64,000 bases of DNA from an uncultured Prevotellaceae bacterium (lineage in GTDB: Bacteria; Bacteroidota; Bacteroidia; Bacteroidales; Bacteroidaceae). The stretch is taken from positions 1 through 64,000 of the forward strand of contig CAMHEL010000004.1 in NCBI GenBank assembly GCA_946184125.1, in the 5' to 3' direction. Positions 1,771-18,606 of this stretch are shown piece by piece (positions within the stretch are counted from its first letter, which is position 1; each line of letters starts with the position of its first letter). The position numbers and the translations under genes were made by a program. The notes below the pieces were generated by a model. That model ran no database searches. It was not told the origin of the DNA and worked only from the letters and a program-made list of their open reading frames with translations.

Positions 1771-5871
<4,101 letters not shown>

Positions 5872-5919: not shown

Positions 5920-5951
5920 TTTGTGGCAGTTTGGAAAAATCAGTAATTTTG
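5920..5951 (+). promoter_or_regulatory. Bacteroidota-type promoter for the giant surface-protein operon
   Basis: TTTG (5920-5923), 20-bp spacer, TAATTTTG (5944-5951); implies a ~130-nt leader before the ATG at 6091. Confidence 0.7.
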
Positions 5952-6090
5952 CAAAATTATAGTGTTCAATGGCTTCGCCTTCCAACATCCTACGCCTAAA
6001 AGAAGGAACGGCAACACGGTTTATCATCCAAGAAAAAAACGGTTATCAGCACAAAAATTACAAAAACAAATCACATAAAAACAGACAATT

Positions 6091-9000
6091 ATGAGCAGAA
6101 TGAAGAGGACATTCAAGAGCAGATGGGTGGTGGCGATGCTACTGTCTTTCTGGGCGATGTTCATCCCTTTGACAGCCATGGCCGATTGTTATGAGGAACA
6201 GGCTTCCAATTACCAGGTCTTTCTGTCGGGGACAGATCAGGTTACCATCAAGGTACCCATCTTCGACAAGGGTGGATACGATTCGTGGGTACGTAATGGC
6301 CGGCTTTTCTACTCCGTAGCAGGCGAAAGTGGAGAAACCATGCTTCTTTTTTGGGGTGTGAACGATGGCGAGGATGACAAAGACATCGACCCATCGGAGT
6401 ATACCAGCAACAGGGATGACTGGAAAAACTATGGCAGCGATTATGTCTATGGCCATTTGAAGACCAGTGCCGGAGGCACCGTATACTGTAAGATTGAAGT
6501 AGATAACAGCGAGGTGGCTTTGGAAAAAAACAAAGTGAGAAGAGAAAAAATCTACACCCACAGTGGCGACAATTATTGGGTCAGCGCTCGCTGGGTGGTG
6601 CCAGAGAACGTCAGGGGCAAGAAAGTGACATTTTCGTGGAAGGTTCGCCGTTCTGGTCATCTACGCTACAAAGACAACGTGAAAGGTCTTGAAGACTTCC
6701 CCATCACCATGCCCGACAGTCCTCCGTCACTCGACATCTCGGTGTCGCGCCCCATCATCACAAGAGAAAATGTCGGTAAGATAATGGTTCCCTGGATTAT
6801 CGGCACAAATAAGGTGCAGAAGGTGGAGACCGTCTACTATGACATCGACAACAAGGAGGTTACCGAAACACTACCTGATACCACCAAGATGGGCATGATA
6901 CCCATTGATGCAGTCAAGCCCCACCGCTCCTTCTATATCAAGGTCGACTATTATAACTCAGAGGGCAACCTTGTGAAAGGCAAGATGAGCACTCCGCAGT
7001 CGATGCCAATGATTCATGCCCCCAAGAATTTCATAGCAACCCCGCAAAATGATGGCACCGGTTCGGTGTTGCTATCGTGGGAAATGGACTGTCTGAATGA
7101 TGAAGACCTCATCGACGGGGATGTCTTCGAAATTCAGCGCTCCGTCACCGGAAATGAAGAGGACTATACCAGTTTGGGGCAGGAAGTGTTCGATATCAAC
7201 AATTCGGAATACAGTTTTGTTGATTCCACCTTGCTCGAGTCATTCACTCCCTCCTCTATCACTGAGTTCGGCAAATTCCCGACAGTTCGTTATCGCATTC
7301 GCCGTGGTGCAACAGCCTATTGGGGATGGAAAAACAACCCCACAATGGCGACGACATCCGCCTCGTTGGGTACCATGAACCTTCTCTATCCCATCGATGC
7401 CAAGTCGGAATTAACGAATAAGGATGAGCGCACCGTGAAGGTGACATGGAACTATCGGTCAAATGACCCAGAGCACTGGTATGTGTGGGACAATAGAGCC
7501 AAGATGCTGCTCACAGTCTATATGCGCAATCAAGACGATCAGTTGGTGGACAGCACCGTATATACCCTCACCGAAAAAGAGATAAGGGAGAAGACGAAGA
7601 CCCTGAATTTGCTGCGGCCCTGCATCAAATACGATGTGAAACTGAGCATCCTCGATGAAGACACCCCTGTGGGAAAAGGCGGGTACTTCTCCATCAAATC
7701 GATAAAAGACTGGAACACCCTCTGTCGTTACACCTTGGAAGGTGGAAACACGGGTGGCATGGTGGTATCTCTCGAATGTGACTTGAACCTTGTAAATGAT
7801 GATCCAGGGTCCCTATTAGGTTCTGAAGAACATCCATTCATGGGTATTTTCGAAGGAAACGGGCACGCCTTCAACCCTAATGACATACCGAGAAGCCGTC
7901 CAAGTTTATTCTTCTTTGCCTCCACTGAAAATGCCACCATCAGGAATTTGATTGTCAATGCCAATTTCACCAACAGAGTTATTTTAAGTGGAATGGTGGC
8001 ATCGGCCACAAATACCATTATTGAAAAATGTGTCGTCAATGTTTCTTTCGAGAAGTTTAAGCTGGCTTCCGGCATGGTTGTGCAAGGTAACAATGTGACC
8101 ATCAAGAACTGTTTGGTGAATGTGTTGGCTTTGAAAACCGACGATTTCTTCAATTTTGGTGGCTATTTCATAACTGGTGAGAATTGCCATGTCATCAATT
8201 CTGTCCTCGCATTCCAGATGAATGTCATTAATGCTTCGAACAATAGCCAGTTTTATGCCATCAATATAGGAGGTTCATGCTCACCAGATAACTGCTATAC
8301 TTATTCGGCCGACAAATCGATAAACAGCACCCAGTCCACTACTATGTATAGGGGACGCCCAATCAGTTCCAGCCTTCTTGGTGAATACTGGACGACTTCC
8401 AGCACGGCTCCCAATGTCTACCCAAAGATAAGCAATTCCATAGAATACGTATTCGAACGCTTCTCGTCACTTGTGGTCGAGGGTCCGACATATTATTATG
8501 AGATTTCCGGCAAGGTGCTCAAAGGACTTGAGGCACGTCAGCTTCAGAGCAGCGTTGTGCTGACTTGGGATTTGGATGGCGGCGCAGTGGACTACTGCCA
8601 AGTACTGCGAAAAACAGTGGGGGGAACGAAATTTGATATCATTGCCCCCGAAGTGATTGGCACATCCTATGAGGACAAAGATGTCTCACCTCTTGAAAAA
8701 TATGAGTATTTCGTCCGCTCAGCAGTGAACTGCGAGGGTACCCATTTCGAATACACCGACACCATCACCGGCTCATGTAAGGATACAGGACTACTGGAGG
8801 GCTATGTACGCTTTGTCGACGGAACGGGCATCCCAGGACTCACCATCACGGTGACCGACTCTGAAGACAATTTGGCAGGCACTACCGAAACCGACGACAA
8901 AGGCTATTATAAGGTGGACAATCTCTCCTATAAGGGACAGAGGAAAATCTACTACACTGTCGCTGTCGTATCCACTTCGAGTCTGGCTTTCGAAAAAGAC

Positions 9001-12000
9001 AAGAAAGCAAATACCATATCGTTCGACGATTCATCCAACCACTGCATACTTGAAGACTTCACCGTCGTCTCGGGATACCGTTTCTCGGGCTATGTGATGT
9101 ATGATGGCACGTCAATACCCGTCCCTGGAGTCAACTTCTCGGTCAATGGGCATGATGTCTATGCGTCAACAGGCGACTTGCTTGAGACCGACCATAGCGG
9201 TAAGTTCTCTTTCTATGTGATAGGCAACCAGCAGACGACCATCGTCTCCAAGAAAGATGGCCATATATTCGTCAACAACGGAAAATACGAGCATTATTTC
9301 ACCGACAAGCTTTCGGAGGTCCACTTCTATGATGCCACGAAGGTGAAGTTGGTGGGACGTATGGCAGGTGGCGACATCCAGGGCGATCTTCCTTTGGATA
9401 ACAGCCTCTCGCGCAACAACCTTGGCACCGACCTGGAAATGGTCCTCACGCTGGAGGGCGACAACACATCAAGTTTGGTGTACGACAACCTCAATCCTCT
9501 GCTTACGGAGCGCGATACGGTGTTTGTCAATGGGCACAAGAGCAGTAAAGCCGAGCACGTGACGAAAGTGCATTTCTACCGCAAGCGCATGGTGGTCAAC
9601 CCCGATGAGACTACTGGTGAGTTCACCCTCATGCTTCCGCCCGTGAAATGGAAAGTGCTGCAGGCATACTGCAATGGTTACGGTACACTCTTCCAGGATG
9701 GTAAGGCGAGTGAAGTGGTCGACCTGACCGACTCGCTCACCCTGCATACCGACAATTACAACGGTTCATGGCAAGACATCGACGGCATCAACGTCACCAA
9801 TCCCAATGTGAGATACAATGGCATCTACAAGTGCATCTACCACGCACCTATAGAACTGCGTTACACACAGCTCAACTACGATAATTTCGACTACCTTGGC
9901 GACAAGAACTACACCGCATACAACCAGGGCGGCGACAAGGAAATCGTCCCGCTCGCCTATAATGACACGGTAAAAGTGAAGGTCAACAACGTTGTCAAAG
10001 AGCAAGTGCTGACAAAATACACATTTGGCCATCCTGTGTTCAACATCAACCGCCCCTATGCCTTCCAGCTGTCGGCCCAGGAGCGCTATTACTGGAACAA
10101 CAACCAGCGCAGCGACACCATCGATGTGGTGAAACTCAATGGTGGCACTGTTACCATCCACAATAGCATGGAAAGTTCCACACACAGTGAGAAGGTGGAG
10201 CTTGATAGCGAAGGAATAGGCTACGTCAACTTGAAGGCATCGCAGATTTCATACAACCTTACGAGTAATGATGCCTTGCGCAACGTCACGATGACATTGG
10301 AGATTAATGGACTCACCTGCGAGGCAGAACCCATAGAGGCCTATATCCTCAACCTATACGCCATACCAGGTGCGAAAGACATACTCAACTCAGAGAAGCC
10401 CACCTTGGTCGACATCCTTCGCGACCCGCCAGGCGGCGGCAGTTATGCCACCCTGTCAAAGGGCTCCACACTGAAGTATTCCTACACCATGGACATGAAA
10501 TGGTCGGCAGGCATCACTCTTGACCTCAGCTCCGGCACTGGAATGAACAATTACTATGGAGTGACGACCACCTCCCCCCCTGGTGGCTTTGGTCCCTCCT
10601 ATGGCGTCATCCAGGATGCAAAGAACGAAACGGCGTATTCGAATGACTTCACTTTCAATGGCAGCGGCAGCCGAGCCTACAATTACACCATGACAGCCAC
10701 CGAGGACATCAAGACCAGTACGGGTGGCACAATGGTAGGCGCTCCAGCCGACCTTTACATCGGCGTGGTACAGAACAATATCGTCACGCCTGCAGTCGCC
10801 ATCCGTGCCGTGTCCGACAGCGTGTTCCAGCAGATGGTTGGCTTGCTTGCAGGAGGTGTGTTGCCCACAGGCGACAAAGCCAAATCCGGACGTATGGCGG
10901 AAATCGCCAGGGGAACCGACAAGAAAGGCAATGTGTACCACCTGGTGCGTAATGAGACTTTGTCGATGGGCGCCAACATCACCTCATCGTTCATCCACAG
11001 CCAGAAAAACATCCTCGGCCAAATCATACCCGAACTCTTCGAACAGTGTCGCTCGCTGATGTTCATCGGCACCGAGGCGGAAGCCCAAAAGCTTGCCAAC
11101 TCTACGAAGAAGAATGTGTATCTCTCGTTGGTGGCGCCTACCGACAGCGCTTTCGCCGTCATGAATATGTGGAAGGGCAACCCCATCATCTACACCCTGA
11201 AGGACCACCACGACTCCAAGAATCACAAAGATGGCATGAGCTATGTCATCGTGAAGCCCGAAAACTATAAGGACACAAGTCTGGAAATAGATGAGGTGCA
11301 GAAATACTGCGGCATCATGTACGAATGGATAAAGATGATTCAGCGCAACGAGGAGGAAAAGCTGGCAGCCAATGAATTGGTTCGGAACTTCGATGTGGAT
11401 GGTGGTTCTTCCACTACTTACGCTGAGAATTTCGAGAGCCAGTATGCCAATACTTTCTCCACGACAGCACCATTGGGCATCAGCGTCGACAACTATTTCA
11501 GTTCCAGTGGGGATTCCTACAGTGGAGGCGATATCGTGCTTAATGCCGCCAATTCCTTTGGCAAGGTGTTCGGTCCCTTCATCGTCAAGCTTCTTGGCAA
11601 AATCATGTCGTCGAACACCGTCGAAGCCAACGGCTCAAAGGATATTAACAAAGGAAGGTACACCACAGAGGTCAACTTCACCGGAAGCCGTGTCAAATTC
11701 CTCATCTATCCCACGTTGTCGTATTCGGTGACACCCAAGAACACCAAGACCGAGACCTACAACCGCAAAGAGTCGTTCTCCATCAGCATGAACAGTGCCA
11801 GCCACCTCAACTTCGATGTCTATCGCACCAAGGTCATGAAGAACGACAAGATCAAGCCTCAGGATGAGCTCGATGTGTTCACCAATCAGAACATGCTCGA
11901 CCAGGAGAGTTATGAGAAGGCCTTCCTCAACCGCCATTTCAATTTGGACAACATGGAAGAGGACTTCTACCGCAGTCCCAGAGGCTTTGTTTACCGCACT

Positions 12001-15000
12001 CGTGGCGGTGCCACAGCCCAGCCATGGGAGAACCAGCGCTCCACTATTTTCTACAATCCCGGTACAGAGATCGATGCCAAGACCTTGAAGATAGAGAACC
12101 CGAAAATCACGCTCGACAAGCAGAGCGTGAGCGGTGTTCCCTTCGGCGAGCCGGCAGTATTCAAAATCTATCTGACCAATGAAAGCGAAGCTCCCAATGC
12201 CGTCACCTATGGATTGTCGTATTACACACTCTTCCTCGACGACTCTTCCAATCCCCATGGAGCGAAACTGATGATTGACGGCGTTCCACTCTCTAATGAT
12301 GGACGCTCCATCTATGCGCCATTTGGAGCGGTGACTGAAAAGACTCTTGAGGTCTATGCCGGAAAAGAATTCGACTACGAGAACCTGCAGATAGGCGTTA
12401 TGTCGAAAGGTGACGCCAACATCAGGGAATTGGTGAAGTTCGATGTCCATTTCCTCCATACTGCTGGTCCGGTCAACATCTCCGTTCCTGGCGATAGGTG
12501 GGTGATGAATACCGATGCGCCCAGCAATGTCAAGGGTTACTACCTGCCAGTGAAAATCGACGGTTTCGACCGGAAGCAGCCGAATTTCGACCACATCGAG
12601 TTCCAGTACAAGGAGACAGCCCGGGGCGATGACCACTGGACCAACCAGTGCTCGTTCTACGCCAGCGACACCCTGATGGCGAAAGCCAGTGGGGCAAAGG
12701 CGATGATACCCGAGAATGGGTATATCGACACTGAGTTCTATGGCGAGCAAATCATCATGGAGAAAGCCTACGACCTGCGTGCCGTGCTCTTCATTCGCAA
12801 CGGCACAGGTTTCATCACCTCCACTTCAAAGGTTATCAGTGGCATCAAGGACACACGCCGGCCTCAAATCTTTGGCACTCCCACCCCATCGGATGGTGTG
12901 CTCGACATTGGTGAGAACATCGTGTTCGATTTTACCGAGGCGATAGAGTACAATTACATCGACCATAATACCGACTTCGAGGTGAAGGGCGAGGTGAACA
13001 ATGACAACATAGCCGAAACCGTGGCCATCGACTTCCAAGGCAAGGGAAGCGTGGAGTCGGAGGCTGAGCGCAACTTCACCGGCAAGGACCTGACCGTCTC
13101 GATGATGGTGTATCCCAAGGCCACTGGCGAAGGAATGCCGCTCTTCTCGCACGGCAAGGACAACAAGCGCCTGCAGCTCTGGCTCACTGATGATATGAAG
13201 CTCAAAGCCGTGGTGAATGAAGTCGACAACAAATACATCTCCTCCTCTCCCATCGGCTCTGGCGGCTTCCAACAAGTGGCCATGGTTATACAGCAACCCG
13301 AGTCCAACAAAGAACCGTGGAAGCTGACCCTCTACAATGGCGGAAAGCCCATTGGCACATTCAAGATGGACGAGCCATATACGGGCTCCGGACGCCTCAT
13401 CTTCGGACGCACCAACGAGGAGAACCGACATGATCAAGACTGCAGATACTACACCGGACGTATGATGGAAGCCCGCGTGTGGTACCGAGCACTCACACCA
13501 AGCCAAATCAATAGCTATGGCGAGAAACGGCTTACCGGCTATGAGATGGGGCTGGTAGACTACTACCCCATGAATGAAGGTCAAGGCAACTATGCCACCG
13601 ACCATGCTCAAGGAGCCCATGCACAAATCATCGACGCCTCATGGGCCATCCCGAGAACCATGTCGCTACATCTCGACTTTTCCGACCGTGGTATGGCACT
13701 TAAGAAGAATGCCCTCAAGCGAAACAAGGACGAGGACTACACCCTCATGTTCTGGTTCAGAACCACCGAAGAAGGACGCGGAGCACTCATCTCGAACGGT
13801 GCCGGATATGCCGATGACGTGGAAGCCGAGAACCAGTTCTTCATCGGTTTCGAGGGTAGCCAGCTCGTCTACCGCTCCAACGGAATGCAAATCGATATCC
13901 CCGGCGACTACAGCGACGACGCTTGGCACCACTATGCCATGACCGTCAACCGCGCACGCAATGTGGCAAATATCTACATGGACCGCACGCTGCGCGCCAC
14001 CTTCGCTGCCGACACCCTCGGAGGTATCATTGATGGTTATCCGCTCTTGGGTGGCACACTCCACATGAGCAAGAAAGACTCACTGGTGGCCGACACTCAC
14101 AACTGGCTCAGGGGAAATCTCGATGAGATATGCCTCTTCGGTCAGGCGCTCCCGCTCACACTCATTAGCAACTTCAGCATGAAGTGCCCCCATGGCGATG
14201 AGGCAGGCCTGCTCGCCTACTTGGGATTCAACCGGCAGGAGCTGCAGAGCGACAACACTTTCAAGACTGTGCCCTACGAATACAGCCAGGTGATTTATAC
14301 GGACCGTGAAGGCAACGTCAGATACGTGGAAGACCCCGTGACAAAAAAGCCCACGAACATTCCCGTGCGCGACTACCTCTTCGCCGACACCGTCTCGCAC
14401 GCCAAGGTGCTTGCACATATCGACCAGGAAATGGGTGCTCCTGTGAGGCCCTACGAGGAGCTCAAGAACCTCAACTTCAGCTTTGTGGCTCGCGACAACC
14501 AACTCCTTGTCAGCATCGATGAACCGACGGAATACATTAATAAACGAAACGTCTATGTCACGGTGCGCAACATTGCCGACCTCAACGGCAACAGCATGGC
14601 TTCGCCTTCAACGATGAGCTGCTTCGTCGACTGCAACCCGCTTAGATGGAGCGAGAAAACCATCAGCACCTACATGCTCTACGGATATAGTAACACGTAT
14701 AGGACGTCCATCAAGAACGTCAGCGGCACCACGCATACCTACAAAATCACCAACTGTCCGAAATGGCTGACTGTCAGTTCGCCGACAAACACCATCGGAC
14801 CGAGGGGCGAAGAGTCGATCGTGTTCACCATCAACGAAAACCTCAATGCGGGTACCTACGACGAAATCATCTACCTGACGGATGAGAACGGACTTGCCGA
14901 ACCACTTGCCTTCAACATTGAAGTCTACGATAATGAGCCGGAATGGACGGTGAGCAACCACCTGCGCCAGTTCTCGATGAACATTATCGGACGTGTGGTG

Positions 15001-16347
15001 ATGGGATCGCTCAACGATTATGAAATCATCACCGACTCGCGCGATATCGTCGGCGTGTTCGACCGCAAGGGCATCTGCCACGGCATGGCACACATCAGTT
15101 ACGACAGCGACACCCAGAGCTCATTGCTCTACCTCACTGTCTATAACGACACGACGAATATCGGACAGCTCTACTTCAAGCTATGGCACTACGCCACCGG
15201 CAAGGAAATGCTGCTGACCAACTACGACAACATCACCTTTGCCACATCCAAGCTCTATGGCAGCAAGAACCAGCCATGCATGTTCTATGCCGACAACCAA
15301 TATGTGCAGACGCTCAATCTCAAGCAAGGATGGAACTGGGTGTCGTTCAATGTCTACAACAAGAACACCTTCGACAACCTCGACGGCCTTCTCAACGGAT
15401 TCCCATGGAAGAATGGCGACATCGTGACGCTGTTATCAGATGGGGGAGGTAATGATCCCACTGGCAAGAACAATGACCTCACCCTCATCTATGTGGACGA
15501 CCATTGGAAGATTTCCGGCAATATCACCGACAATAAGTTGCCCGTCCTACCCATGAACTCCTATGCAGTGAGGGTTCAGGAAGACATCACGGTGCAACTC
15601 TCGGGCTACATCCTTAAGAGCACCGACGACCGCACCATCTTCGTCGACAATGGCTGGAACAGTATTGGCTATACGCCGATGATGAACCTTCCTGTGGAGA
15701 CCGCGCTGACAGACTACCACAGTTATGCGAAGGATGGCGACATCATCAAGAGCCATGACGAGTTTGCCGTATTCAACGCCGATTCCACAGGTAATGGGCG
15801 CTGGGAGGGCAACCTCAAGTACATGCGCCCAGGCGAAGGCTATATGCTCTTCCATCAGGACGACACCGAGGTGGAGTTCGTCTATCCATTCTTCGAACCG
15901 GGCAGCATATTCATCGACGAGAACTATAAGGCACCGGCCGTCCGCGTCAGCGGATTACCCTCTACGATGTCGCTGACAGCTATCGCCGACGGCATCACCC
16001 TTGAGCCCGGCGACCGTCTGCTGGCATACGCCGACGGTGAGCTGAGAGGAGCCTCGCCGATGTCGGCAGACAGCCTGTTCTTTGTCAGTATCAGCGGCGA
16101 CCGCCAGCAAGGCCTCACCTTCGCCATCGAACGCGAGGGAGAAATCATCGCCACCACACCCGAACTGATGACGTTCAAGACGAATGCCGTGGTAGGTAAG
16201 CCCGCCTTGCCCACTCGCATCGCATTCAATAGAACGGTCGACAGCACCGAGCGCGGATGGTACACCCTCGAGGGTATCAAGCTGCCCAGCCGTCCTACAA
16301 AGAAAGGCATCTATATCTACAACGGAAAGAAAAGAGTCGTGGAATAA
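6091..16347 (+). CDS. Giant (3418 aa) secreted multidomain surface protein: FnIII-like, carboxypeptidase-regulatory-like, two LamG-like, BACON-like and 'GWNWVS' segments, C-terminal GIYIYNGKK tail
   Basis: Signal peptide MKRTFKSRWVVAMLLSFWAMFIPLTAMA; 'LLEGYVRFVDGTGIPGLTITVTD' (CarboxypepD_reg-like); 'KNKDEDYTLMFWFRTTEEGRGALISNG...DDAWHHYAMTVNRARNVANIYMDRTL...GNLDEICLFGQAL' (LamG); 'LNLKQGWNWVSFNVYN'; ends 'GWYTLEGIKLPSRPTKKGIYIYNGKKRVVE'. Confidence 0.85.
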   Translation: MSRMKRTFKSRWVVAMLLSFWAMFIPLTAMADCYEEQASNYQVFLSGTDQVTIKVPIFDKGGYDSWVRNGRLFYSVAGESGETMLLFWGVNDGEDDKDIDPSEYTSNRDDWKNYGSDYVYGHLKTSAGGTVYCKIEVDNSEVALEKNKVRREKIYTHSGDNYWVSARWVVPENVRGKKVTFSWKVRRSGHLRYKDNVKGLEDFPITMPDSPPSLDISVSRPIITRENVGKIMVPWIIGTNKVQKVETVYYDIDNKEVTETLPDTTKMGMIPIDAVKPHRSFYIKVDYYNSEGNLVKGKMSTPQSMPMIHAPKNFIATPQNDGTGSVLLSWEMDCLNDEDLIDGDVFEIQRSVTGNEEDYTSLGQEVFDINNSEYSFVDSTLLESFTPSSITEFGKFPTVRYRIRRGATAYWGWKNNPTMATTSASLGTMNLLYPIDAKSELTNKDERTVKVTWNYRSNDPEHWYVWDNRAKMLLTVYMRNQDDQLVDSTVYTLTEKEIREKTKTLNLLRPCIKYDVKLSILDEDTPVGKGGYFSIKSIKDWNTLCRYTLEGGNTGGMVVSLECDLNLVNDDPGSLLGSEEHPFMGIFEGNGHAFNPNDIPRSRPSLFFFASTENATIRNLIVNANFTNRVILSGMVASATNTIIEKCVVNVSFEKFKLASGMVVQGNNVTIKNCLVNVLALKTDDFFNFGGYFITGENCHVINSVLAFQMNVINASNNSQFYAINIGGSCSPDNCYTYSADKSINSTQSTTMYRGRPISSSLLGEYWTTSSTAPNVYPKISNSIEYVFERFSSLVVEGPTYYYEISGKVLKGLEARQLQSSVVLTWDLDGGAVDYCQVLRKTVGGTKFDIIAPEVIGTSYEDKDVSPLEKYEYFVRSAVNCEGTHFEYTDTITGSCKDTGLLEGYVRFVDGTGIPGLTITVTDSEDNLAGTTETDDKGYYKVDNLSYKGQRKIYYTVAVVSTSSLAFEKDKKANTISFDDSSNHCILEDFTVVSGYRFSGYVMYDGTSIPVPGVNFSVNGHDVYASTGDLLETDHSGKFSFYVIGNQQTTIVSKKDGHIFVNNGKYEHYFTDKLSEVHFYDATKVKLVGRMAGGDIQGDLPLDNSLSRNNLGTDLEMVLTLEGDNTSSLVYDNLNPLLTERDTVFVNGHKSSKAEHVTKVHFYRKRMVVNPDETTGEFTLMLPPVKWKVLQAYCNGYGTLFQDGKASEVVDLTDSLTLHTDNYNGSWQDIDGINVTNPNVRYNGIYKCIYHAPIELRYTQLNYDNFDYLGDKNYTAYNQGGDKEIVPLAYNDTVKVKVNNVVKEQVLTKYTFGHPVFNINRPYAFQLSAQERYYWNNNQRSDTIDVVKLNGGTVTIHNSMESSTHSEKVELDSEGIGYVNLKASQISYNLTSNDALRNVTMTLEINGLTCEAEPIEAYILNLYAIPGAKDILNSEKPTLVDILRDPPGGGSYATLSKGSTLKYSYTMDMKWSAGITLDLSSGTGMNNYYGVTTTSPPGGFGPSYGVIQDAKNETAYSNDFTFNGSGSRAYNYTMTATEDIKTSTGGTMVGAPADLYIGVVQNNIVTPAVAIRAVSDSVFQQMVGLLAGGVLPTGDKAKSGRMAEIARGTDKKGNVYHLVRNETLSMGANITSSFIHSQKNILGQIIPELFEQCRSLMFIGTEAEAQKLANSTKKNVYLSLVAPTDSAFAVMNMWKGNPIIYTLKDHHDSKNHKDGMSYVIVKPENYKDTSLEIDEVQKYCGIMYEWIKMIQRNEEEKLAANELVRNFDVDGGSSTTYAENFESQYANTFSTTAPLGISVDNYFSSSGDSYSGGDIVLNAANSFGKVFGPFIVKLLGKIMSSNTVEANGSKDINKGRYTTEVNFTGSRVKFLIYPTLSYSVTPKNTKTETYNRKESFSISMNSASHLNFDVYRTKVMKNDKIKPQDELDVFTNQNMLDQESYEKAFLNRHFNLDNMEEDFYRSPRGFVYRTRGGATAQPWENQRSTIFYNPGTEIDAKTLKIENPKITLDKQSVSGVPFGEPAVFKIYLTNESEAPNAVTYGLSYYTLFLDDSSNPHGAKLMIDGVPLSNDGRSIYAPFGAVTEKTLEVYAGKEFDYENLQIGVMSKGDANIRELVKFDVHFLHTAGPVNISVPGDRWVMNTDAPSNVKGYYLPVKIDGFDRKQPNFDHIEFQYKETARGDDHWTNQCSFYASDTLMAKASGAKAMIPENGYIDTEFYGEQIIMEKAYDLRAVLFIRNGTGFITSTSKVISGIKDTRRPQIFGTPTPSDGVLDIGENIVFDFTEAIEYNYIDHNTDFEVKGEVNNDNIAETVAIDFQGKGSVESEAERNFTGKDLTVSMMVYPKATGEGMPLFSHGKDNKRLQLWLTDDMKLKAVVNEVDNKYISSSPIGSGGFQQVAMVIQQPESNKEPWKLTLYNGGKPIGTFKMDEPYTGSGRLIFGRTNEENRHDQDCRYYTGRMMEARVWYRALTPSQINSYGEKRLTGYEMGLVDYYPMNEGQGNYATDHAQGAHAQIIDASWAIPRTMSLHLDFSDRGMALKKNALKRNKDEDYTLMFWFRTTEEGRGALISNGAGYADDVEAENQFFIGFEGSQLVYRSNGMQIDIPGDYSDDAWHHYAMTVNRARNVANIYMDRTLRATFAADTLGGIIDGYPLLGGTLHMSKKDSLVADTHNWLRGNLDEICLFGQALPLTLISNFSMKCPHGDEAGLLAYLGFNRQELQSDNTFKTVPYEYSQVIYTDREGNVRYVEDPVTKKPTNIPVRDYLFADTVSHAKVLAHIDQEMGAPVRPYEELKNLNFSFVARDNQLLVSIDEPTEYINKRNVYVTVRNIADLNGNSMASPSTMSCFVDCNPLRWSEKTISTYMLYGYSNTYRTSIKNVSGTTHTYKITNCPKWLTVSSPTNTIGPRGEESIVFTINENLNAGTYDEIIYLTDENGLAEPLAFNIEVYDNEPEWTVSNHLRQFSMNIIGRVVMGSLNDYEIITDSRDIVGVFDRKGICHGMAHISYDSDTQSSLLYLTVYNDTTNIGQLYFKLWHYATGKEMLLTNYDNITFATSKLYGSKNQPCMFYADNQYVQTLNLKQGWNWVSFNVYNKNTFDNLDGLLNGFPWKNGDIVTLLSDGGGNDPTGKNNDLTLIYVDDHWKISGNITDNKLPVLPMNSYAVRVQEDITVQLSGYILKSTDDRTIFVDNGWNSIGYTPMMNLPVETALTDYHSYAKDGDIIKSHDEFAVFNADSTGNGRWEGNLKYMRPGEGYMLFHQDDTEVEFVYPFFEPGSIFIDENYKAPAVRVSGLPSTMSLTAIADGITLEPGDRLLAYADGELRGASPMSADSLFFVSISGDRQQGLTFAIEREGEIIATTPELMTFKTNAVVGKPALPTRIAFNRTVDSTERGWYTLEGIKLPSRPTKKGIYIYNGKKRVVE

Positions 16348-16371
16348 TCAAAACAAAACGTTTTAGAATAA

Positions 16372-17199
16372 ATGAAGAACTATCGTATTTTCAATATCAT
16401 CCTGCTTGCAGCCCTCACTTTTATGTGGGGCTGCGGCTCGGATGATGACAATTTTGAAACACCAGAGCCAGAGCCCGGAAAGGGACTGACATGGACCAAG
16501 ACCGAAGGAACTCCCGACTGGAATATCGACTGGTCGGGCGATGATGCTCCTCCCAACTGGACAGACCCCAACCCAGGCAAGTATGAGACATGGATGATTC
16601 TCATGGTGAGGTTGGAGCCTGAGTTGGCAAAGTACTCCACCGAAGACGACATGATGGCTGTGTTCATCAATGGCGAGTTGCGTGCTTTGTCGCATCCTTC
16701 TGTTGCGAAGGGCGACGAGAAGGGCGAGGTGGCCTTCATCCTGAAAGTCTATGGTAACGAGGCTTCCGACAAGCGCTATACCATGAGCCTGTCGTATTAC
16801 AACTACAAGTTGCACCAGACTTTCACCCTCACCGGAGAGCAGATGTTTGTAGCAGAATTCGTATATGGTGTCAACGAGACCTACATGCCCCCACTGCTGT
16901 CAAGCTGCAAAAGATATTCTACGCAAATGTACCTCACCTTCCAGATACCAGAGAGGGTGCAGGAGGTAGTGCATCCAGCACAAGGCGACCTCATCGCCGT
17001 GATGGTGGGCAACGAGTGCCGTGGCCTCGTCAGCCTCAACGAAAAACTGTTCGCCACACCCTATTCGCTTTATGTCTATGGGCATGAGGGCGAAACGGCC
17101 AACCTCTTCTATTACAATGCCAAGGAGAAAGTGATTTGGAAGATGAACGAGAACATCAAGATTATATCGGGGTCGATGGTCCTCAATGTCGACCCTTGA
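16372..17199 (+). CDS. Lipoprotein built from two copies of a module that also appears in the giant protein
   Basis: Lipobox MKNYRIFNIILLAALTFMWGCGSDDD; two segments of the form 'MMAVFINGELRAL...' and 'LIAVMVGNECRGL...'. Starts 24 bp after the giant gene stop. Confidence 0.75.
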   Translation: MKNYRIFNIILLAALTFMWGCGSDDDNFETPEPEPGKGLTWTKTEGTPDWNIDWSGDDAPPNWTDPNPGKYETWMILMVRLEPELAKYSTEDDMMAVFINGELRALSHPSVAKGDEKGEVAFILKVYGNEASDKRYTMSLSYYNYKLHQTFTLTGEQMFVAEFVYGVNETYMPPLLSSCKRYSTQMYLTFQIPERVQEVVHPAQGDLIAVMVGNECRGLVSLNEKLFATPYSLYVYGHEGETANLFYYNAKEKVIWKMNENIKIISGSMVLNVDP

Positions 17200-17243
17200 T
17201 ACGGCTTGTGTAAAATAAAGAACAACGATAGAACACATTTTAA

Positions 17244-18323
17244 ATGAAGAAATTATCTTTGGTTGTGGCCATGACGTTTGCAGTCATCTGTGCTGATGCC
17301 CAGCCCAACTACCATTTCGATGTGAACAACGACGGCGAGGTGAACGTGACCGATGTGATGCTCGTCGTGGAGAGTGTGCTGGGTAAGCAACCCAGCTACC
17401 GCCCCATCACCGTGAGGGTGTCGGAACGCCCGCTCACCCACCCCACTTCAGCCAAAGTGGGAGCACGGCGAGCACCAACCATCACCACCAGCTCACTCGA
17501 GACGTTCTACCTCAACATGATGTACCAATTCCGGAACCGCTGGAGAAGTTCTGACCGCAGTGAGACGAAGAAGACTGCCGACGGCACTTTTGAGAACAAT
17601 GGCAGCTGGCCATCAAATGCACCGGATGAAAGTACCGTTCATGTTTTCGCCTATAAAACATCCTACAAGGCCAACGAACAACCCTTCGTGCTGGATGGCG
17701 GTAACCCTTATCTGCAAATCAGCACCGAGGAGAGTTCCAGCGACCAGTGCGATGTGCTCGTGGCGAAGACGGATGCCATTTACGACGAATGCCATGGGGT
17801 CATCGACCTCACGTTCGACCATATCTGTGCAGCCCTGCAATTCTCCGTCATCAAGTCTTCAAGCCTCGAAAACCAGCAAGTCGAGGTCAACGAGATTGTG
17901 CTCCATCAGGTCAAGAAAAACGGCAAGTATATGTTGATGGATGGCACATGGAGCGACATCGGAACATACCGCGATTTCACCCTTCAGGCTTATCAGGCTG
18001 GAACAGCAAATGCCATCACCGTGAGCAGCACCGAGGAGACCCTTCTCGCCAAGAATGCCGACGACTTGTTGTTTCTCATTCCACAGCCTCTCAATCCCAT
18101 GACGAAGGGAACACCCATCGCTGATGCAGATGCCGAAAACAAGTCGTATATCGAGATCAGATGCAAGATATACGACAGCAGCCAATACTATGTGGGTTCG
18201 GCCACCAACTATGGCTCCGTCTATCTCCCATTCGGTGTTAATCTGTCTGCCGGGCACGTTCACCCCTTTGTCATCAACATCGGCACAGCCATTCGTGACG
18301 CCAACGGCAACAAGGTGATTTAA
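17244..18323 (+). CDS. Secreted protein with one N-terminal dockerin-like calcium-binding repeat and a fimbrillin-like body
   Basis: 'YHFDVNNDGEVNVTDVMLVVESVLGKQ' (dockerin type I-like); fimbrillin-like 'GVIDLTFDHICAALQFSVIKS' and 'GSVYLPFGVNLSAGHVHPFVINIGT'. Confidence 0.65.
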   Translation: MKKLSLVVAMTFAVICADAQPNYHFDVNNDGEVNVTDVMLVVESVLGKQPSYRPITVRVSERPLTHPTSAKVGARRAPTITTSSLETFYLNMMYQFRNRWRSSDRSETKKTADGTFENNGSWPSNAPDESTVHVFAYKTSYKANEQPFVLDGGNPYLQISTEESSSDQCDVLVAKTDAIYDECHGVIDLTFDHICAALQFSVIKSSSLENQQVEVNEIVLHQVKKNGKYMLMDGTWSDIGTYRDFTLQAYQAGTANAITVSSTEETLLAKNADDLLFLIPQPLNPMTKGTPIADADAENKSYIEIRCKIYDSSQYYVGSATNYGSVYLPFGVNLSAGHVHPFVINIGTAIRDANGNKVI

Positions 18324-18334
18324 ACTGTCATATA

Positions 18335-18559
18335 ATGAGAAACAAGAATTATTCCAACCTGAAAAATATGAGATATTACGTCCCCCCTCAGTCAGAGCCA
18401 TTATTGCTGAATACGAACGCACCCATCTTGCAGGACAATGTAGGCACCCCCAACGGCAGTTACTTCGTCAACGACCTGCAAAGAGACATCACCTCGACGA
18501 CCATCGGTGGCGATGATGCCAATTCCACTGGTTTCGACACGTCGCTTTGGGATGAGTGA
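18335..18559 (+). CDS. Small 74-aa protein ending '...GGDDANSTGFDTSLWDE', last gene of the giant-protein operon
   Basis: Same strand, 11 bp after the fimbrillin-like gene and followed by a hairpin terminator; 'YYVPPQSEPLLLNTNAPILQDN' head and acidic W-D-E tail. An alternative start is Met12 at 18368. Confidence 0.6.
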   Translation: MRNKNYSNLKNMRYYVPPQSEPLLLNTNAPILQDNVGTPNGSYFVNDLQRDITSTTIGGDDANSTGFDTSLWDE

Positions 18560-18580
18560 CCATACTGCGGGCGATATAAT

Positions 18581-18606
18581 AAGGTGCGACAGAAATGCCG
18601 CACCTT
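18581..18606 (+). terminator. Hairpin terminator of the giant-protein operon
   Basis: AAGGTGCG / CGCACCTT, 10-nt loop, short T run. A second inverted repeat TCATCCTTGA/TCAAGGATGA follows at 18619-18650. Confidence 0.6.

Follow-up and report, generated by a model that had tools for sequence, protein, structure and literature searches.

A putative giant surface protein with a T9SS-type tail and a module-sharing lipoprotein partner in a conserved operon of Prevotella-type gut bacteria

Here we describe a four-gene operon of Prevotella-type gut bacteria that is real and widely conserved and that, with a probability of roughly 0.6, encodes a surface adhesion or binding apparatus composed of a T9SS-exported giant protein and its surface partners. 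The operon was read from a 64-kb stretch of DNA (the window) and compared with related loci in other genomes.

Results

Anatomy of the operon

Four ORFs lie on the plus strand of the window with intergenic gaps of 24, 44 and 11 nt, and their sequence context predicts that they are co-transcribed. The operon and its flanking signals are as follows.

5920..5951, + strand: promoter-like site TTTG-N20-TANNTTTG, a consensus Bacteroidales promoter at the operon start
6091..16347, + strand: gene 1, giant surface protein of 3418 aa, with signal peptide, FnIII/Ig-like modules, conserved centre, LamG pair, module repeats and T9SS-type tail
16372..17199, + strand: gene 2, lipoprotein of 275 aa, with lipobox WGC-GSDDD and two tandem beta-sandwich modules
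17244..18323, + strand: gene 3, fimbrillin-like (Mfa_like_1) protein of 359 aa, carrying a signal peptide and, where the lipobox would be, one dockerin-like repeat
18368..18559, + strand: gene 4, member of the M[KR]KxYxxP family of small acidic peptides, with 63 aa when read from the start that the family shares and 74 aa when read from 18335
18581..18606, + strand: intrinsic terminator hairpin with an 8-bp stem and a downstream T run

This layout bears out the original prediction, which had described a strong promoter at 5920-5951, four same-strand genes with these gaps and a hairpin terminator at 18581. Sites of the consensus type TTTG-N18-21-TANNTTTG occur three times in the 64-kb window, where 0.32 would be expected. 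Another of them (5790-5820, minus strand) stands ahead of a divergent gene (1771-5802, minus strand) for a LacZ-type beta-galactosidase that has an F5/8 type C domain and a T9SS-type tail like that of the giant. The terminator region folds with an MFE of -15.4 kcal/mol over 61 nt (z -1.8), and the hairpin was missing from the output of a simple terminator scan.

The giant and gene 2 are kept together

A profile of the middle of the giant found matches in 80 of 301 genomes of the family, distributed over 13 of 30 genera, and in 9 of 396 genomes of a phylum-wide draw (the source genome counted), where most matches were weak. Relatives of the gene 2 lipoprotein were present in 37 of 150 genomes of the same genus. 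The 80 named loci come largely from ruminant stomach metagenomes, a habitat to which the collection may be biased; two further operons belong to a cultured strain, Xylanibacter brevis ATCC 19188.

Sixty-two full-length giants were found through their own middle region and hence were not selected for gene 2, which nevertheless directly follows the giant in 59 of them. The gap between the two genes has a median of 6 nt in the wider set, and their start and stop codons often overlap. Gene 3 follows gene 2 in 32 of the 52 loci with enough downstream sequence and is absent from the other 20, and its presence changes 14 times on a tree of the giant's C-terminus. Where gene 3 is present, the peptide lies behind it in 44 of 44 loci. 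The gene-neighbourhood check that the original prediction had proposed thus returned associations that exceed chance for both pairs.

The pairing of giant and gene 2 extends across considerable divergence. Full-length orthologs of the giant within the same genus share 40-50% identity, and a second giant subfamily (33-35% identity) retains a lipoprotein that is shorter and has one module. In a third subfamily (21-25%), the downstream place is taken in two of six cases by a module protein bearing either a dockerin or a T9SS tail. That the four genes are mere neighbours with unrelated surface functions, as the coming and going of gene 3 and the peptide might imply, is highly improbable given that gene 2 is kept beside such diverged giants and at such short or overlapping distances. 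Comparison of these sequences indicates that giant and lipoprotein form the invariant unit and that fimbrillin and peptide are a second unit, which comes and goes. The surface set of four genes that had been predicted therefore stands as a one-operon arrangement conserved in many Prevotella-type genomes, but only its first two members are invariant. At one locus (L048) cassettes are arranged in tandem, with gene 2, gene 3 and the peptide of one operon abutting the giant of the next.

Our search of open-access PMC papers found no description of this giant-protein system, in line with the earlier statement that no named system of such a composition was known. A defence system was rejected for lack of a PADLOC match, and a phage or plasmid origin was rejected as well (genes 2-4 had no PHROG match, gene 2 no plasmid match).

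Architecture of the giant protein

The following segments were distinguished in the giant.

6091..6186 (end approximate), + strand: hydrophobic N-terminal signal sequence
8518..8940 (boundaries approximate), + strand: FnIII and CarboxypepD_reg-like modules
10441..11790, + strand: conserved central region, residues ~1451-1900, with a structure model of mixed confidence
13039-13512 and 13726-14151, + strand: LamG (Laminin_G_3) pair, PF13385, E 2.5e-24
14917..16242 (boundaries approximate), + strand: C-terminal stalk-base region with modules homologous to gene 2, the first at ~14917-15264 and the second near the end of the region
16246..16341, + strand: T9SS-type C-terminal tail (GWYTLEGIKL...KKGIYIYNGKKRVVE), lineage tail model, E 3.6e-16

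A hydrophobic N-terminus is found in 77 of 78 full-length relatives. The LamG, CarboxypepD_reg-like and FnIII folds named in the original prediction were all recovered, FnIII by a profile against PDB sequences and CarboxypepD_reg as a weak Pfam match under its cut-off. It is these domain folds that suggest adhesion.

The predicted structure of the centre, at mixed confidence, combines several helices with beta strands of unusual length, the longest spanning 41 residues, and a strongly conserved LRDPPG motif lies immediately ahead of this region. Foldseek returned low-TM generic multi-domain adhesin or Ig chains for the centre and no convincing match to a solved fold. Because the modelled centre differs from ordinary stalk modules, we considered whether the giant might be a contact-dependent or pore-forming effector instead of an adhesin. 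We judge this very unlikely: there was no match to a toxin, pore-former or defence family, the structural matches are to generic adhesins and Ig-like proteins, the confidence of the model is mixed, and no gene resembles an immunity gene, since gene 2 has the giant's own modules.

Two kinds of irregular giant genes were encountered among the relatives. At locus L161 (3422-12301) the giant is cut off after LamG and runs on, without a change of frame, into the second gene-2 module; we rejected this as a natural fusion, as it looks like a deletion or an assembly join. In the metagenome genomes of loci L046, L051, L060 and L062 the giant gene is split into at least two frames, a state in which decay, assembly error and switching look alike.

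A divergent T9SS-type tail links the giant to the secretion core

The C-terminus of the giant gave no match to PF18962, TIGR04183 or any other Pfam or NCBIfam T9SS model, and we describe its tail by a lineage model of 34 positions, built from 20 tails of the lineage with the giant's own included. All 85 giants with an intact C-terminus carry this tail, as compared to one of 93 gene-2 proteins and none of 50 gene-3 proteins.

Tail and SprA were searched separately in 81 near-complete genomes of the family. All 57 genomes with SprA have at least three tails; among the 24 without it, 22 have no tail, one has a single tail and one (G159) has many, perhaps because of an assembly gap. This co-occurrence has a Fisher p of 2.5e-19, which is not a strict probability as the genomes share descent. 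SprA-positive and SprA-negative states are both found inside one genus (g8), and the source genome itself encodes SprA/Sov (SprA_N, E 1.1e-230). The distribution of CTDs has been reported to track the T9SS core strictly, with few exceptions (PMC10202324), and by its co-occurrence with SprA the tail of the giant follows the T9SS core in the manner described there.

One other tail in the source genome, L085, matches both the new tail model and, weakly and below the cut-off, PF18962. This single bridging sequence connects the giant's tail to type A CTDs, a kinship that we otherwise infer. The co-occurrence, the position of the tail and the bridging sequence together argue for T9SS export, and a multidomain surface adhesin exported by the T9SS is the most likely identity of the giant. 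In the source genome the Pfam T9SS tail model finds 5 proteins (2 above cut-off), as opposed to at least 96 by the lineage model, and T9SS cargo in Prevotella-type genomes thus seems heavily under-annotated.

Gene 2 shares modules with the base of the giant

Gene 2 matched no family in any domain library used. Its AlphaFold model (mean pLDDT 84, mostly >90 outside residues 1-40) contains two tandem beta-sandwich modules, for which Foldseek gave weak Ig- or pilin-like matches alone (TM <=0.28) and no structural relative. The same modules align with C-terminal modules of the giant (hhalign, E 2.9e-12 and 3.8e-8). Gene 2 thus appears to be built from the modules of the giant's own stalk base, and this sharing may reflect common ancestry instead of contact.

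Acidic residues at positions +3 to +7 (a C-S-S-D-D-D stretch) follow the lipobox in 79 of 89 lipobox-bearing gene-2 proteins; the window copy reads WGC-GSDDD, and C-S-S-D-D-D-type sequences are found on gene-2 and gene-3 lipoproteins alike. This stretch is close to SDDDD, the surface-export signal of B. fragilis lipoproteins (PMC5080379), which suggests a surface location for both proteins. The lipoprotein had been predicted to anchor the giant in the outer membrane. It need not do so, since the giant has its own T9SS-type tail, and gene 2 is better described as a surface partner made of the same modules.

Lipobox and dockerin-like repeat alternate on gene 2 and gene 3

Gene 3 contains an Mfa_like_1 domain (PF13149, E 1.7e-12). 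The usual dockerin domain comprises two tandem 22-residue calcium-binding repeats; the window copy of gene 3 has a plain signal peptide, no lipobox and a single half-repeat.

17316..17381, + strand: dockerin-like repeat of gene 3, residues 25-46, Dockerin_1 E 2e-4, just under the curated cut-off

The dockerin-like and fimbrillin-like character originally ascribed to gene 3 is thus upheld for its Mfa_like_1 domain, but the dockerin consists of one repeat and most relatives have a lipobox in its place. Among 50 gene-3 proteins, 43 have a lipobox (L167 being counted after a start correction) and seven have an N-terminal dockerin-like repeat without one (those of L107 and L164 were read by eye, as the strict pattern missed them). 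Gene 2 shows the same alternation: 89 of 93 distinct proteins carry a lipobox and no dockerin, and four carry dockerin repeats, two each, placed C-terminally in L059, L060 and L061 and N-terminally in L165. A simple rule flagged a Cys of the L061 protein as a lipobox, in what we judged to be an ordinary signal peptide. For both genes together (n=143, by-eye readings included), 132 proteins have a lipobox, 11 a dockerin and none both. The swap has recurred, as anchors switch about five times on the tree of the giant's C-terminus, three times for gene 2 and twice for gene 3. The simplest reading of these sequences is that the dockerin-like repeat would take over the holding role of the lipid.

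A partner for such repeats may be at hand, as the source genome encodes a cohesin (PF00963, E 7.4e-11). Cohesin was present in all seven tested genomes with dockerin-type copies and in 8 of 14 lipobox-only genomes, a suggestive difference in the expected direction that is not significant (one-sided p 0.055). At locus L184 (G000:C180), neighbouring genes encode dockerin repeats and cohesin-like domains, and one of them may have a T9SS-like end, an arrangement which suggests that cohesin and dockerin occur on the same surface proteins.

These findings bear on two further explanations. The operon could encode a cellulosome-like scaffold in which surface proteins are joined by dockerin and cohesin, an idea favoured by the repeats on some gene-2 and gene-3 proteins and by the cohesin of the source genome and its distribution. 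We consider it distinctly unlikely given that 132 of the 143 proteins have a lipobox and no dockerin, that the gene 3 dockerin is a half-repeat, that neither the giant nor gene 2 has a Pfam cohesin and that the operon is without an enzyme. Alternatively, it could be a type V (FimA/Mfa-like) fimbrial operon with the pilus as main product and the giant as tip adhesin. This fits the Mfa_like_1 domain of gene 3 and its lipoprotein nature in 43 of 50 relatives, which is shared with fimbrillin precursors, but is unlikely because there is a single fimbrillin-like gene with no stalk, anchor and tip series, because 20 of 52 relatives with room for gene 3 lack it and retain giant and gene 2, because the window gene 3 has no lipoprotein signal and because the giant carries a T9SS tail of its own. 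An apparatus centred on the exported giant and its partners remains the reading that we prefer.

The small peptide belongs to a family associated with T9SS cargo genes

The original prediction gave the peptide 74 residues. It is a conserved ORF behind gene 3 and probably starts at 18368 and not at 18335 (63 aa, gap 44), as relatives begin M[KR]..Y..P there. Gene 4 is acidic and has neither a signal sequence nor a membrane segment, and members of its family share an M-K-K-x-Y-x-x-P start and an acidic C-terminus that often ends near a Trp. Values of dN/dS range from 0.06 to 0.59, all below 1, among the pairs listed with measurable dS. In 38 loci without gene 3 the peptide pattern has five matches, of which one (L150) was judged a true family member; with this judgement, the association between peptide and gene 3 has a p of 1e-22, which overstates it as the loci are related.

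The family extends well beyond the giant operon. In the DNA of the source genome the M[KR]KxYxxP pattern has 18 matches, versus none in the reversed control. Across 58 genomes with T9SS tails there are 236 matches (control 32), and across 23 genomes without such tails 33 (control 36). About 10 of the roughly 14 short-ORF matches in the source genome lie 11-60 nt downstream of T9SS-tail genes, as do 13-14 of 17 real peptide ORFs in four other genomes behind genes of this kind, a count that leaves out previously visible cases and includes two tails recognised by eye and not by pattern. These counts and positions indicate that the peptide is specific to T9SS-bearing genomes and not to the giant operon: as far as the pattern can tell, the family is found almost only in such genomes, with most members behind cargo genes.

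The family is unnamed, the peptides tried having no convincing Pfam or NCBIfam match, and on this basis a known peptide family and a natural-product precursor were both rejected. A text search of open-access PMC papers with peptide N-termini found no paper, and no comparable small-protein family of T9SS accessories was found in this literature. The peptide had been proposed as part of the surface system. It is a member of the operon, but it is an unlikely structural component, since it lacks a signal sequence and its family is a general one whose members accompany T9SS cargo genes. We tentatively advance a combined proposal, at clearly less than even odds, in which the family is an unrecognised cytoplasmic T9SS accessory that helps to make, hold or target cargo and in which dockerin-like repeats provide a surface retention interchangeable with the lipid anchor. 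Of all parts of the operon, this family is perhaps the most novel.

Discussion

Our working model reads surface location, contacts between modules, ligand binding and a role for the peptide from sequence. The giant would first use the Sec pathway and then T9SS through its C-terminal tail. Once exported, it would be retained at the outer membrane and form a long chain of FnIII, Ig-like and carboxypeptidase-regulatory-like beta modules, with its LamG pair probably contacting a glycan or protein ligand. The lipoprotein would be its neighbour on the outer face, where it would probably pack on the giant's base or lengthen it. Where present, the fimbrillin-like protein would join the two, lipid-held in most species and presumably held by its dockerin-like repeat here, and the small peptide would remain in the cytoplasm and probably assist or regulate the production of T9SS cargo.

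A comparison with known systems reveals partial parallels. Like T9SS type A cargo (PF18962/TIGR04183 tail), the giant is a very large multidomain protein, predicted to be exported, with a signal peptide, a sorting tail at the extreme C-terminus and an occurrence bound to the T9SS core; unlike it, the giant has a short, divergent tail that Pfam and NCBIfam models miss and a fixed partner lipoprotein of shared modules. The SprB operon of Flavobacterium johnsoniae (sprC, sprD, sprB, sprF) likewise combines a giant T9SS-exported adhesin with accessory genes, but SprB ends in a type B tail and is partnered by a PorP/SprF barrel (PMC10202324), whereas the giant has a type A-like tail and is accompanied by a lipoprotein and a fimbrillin-like protein. 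A Pfam scan of the operon proteins and two flanking proteins gave no match to a PorP/SprF-type barrel. FimA/Mfa1-type (type V) fimbriae share with the operon a member of the PF13149 superfamily, usually a lipoprotein in the relatives of gene 3; the operon differs in having a single, optional fimbrillin and no dedicated anchor and tip series. Cohesin-dockerin assemblies resemble it in the dockerin-type repeats of some copies and in cohesin domains elsewhere in the genome, and differ in that gene 3 has a single repeat alternating with a lipobox and that the operon contains neither enzymes nor a scaffoldin.

Judging from the tail model, most T9SS cargo in Prevotella-type genomes seems to escape standard annotation, and the anchor swap points to a possible role for dockerin-like repeats that stand as orphans in Bacteroidales. 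If the proposal holds, a small-protein family restricted to T9SS genomes and encoded behind cargo genes would add a new type of accessory to the T9SS. A large class of giant proteins of gut Prevotella, which now bear fold labels alone, gains a testable unit and a link to T9SS.
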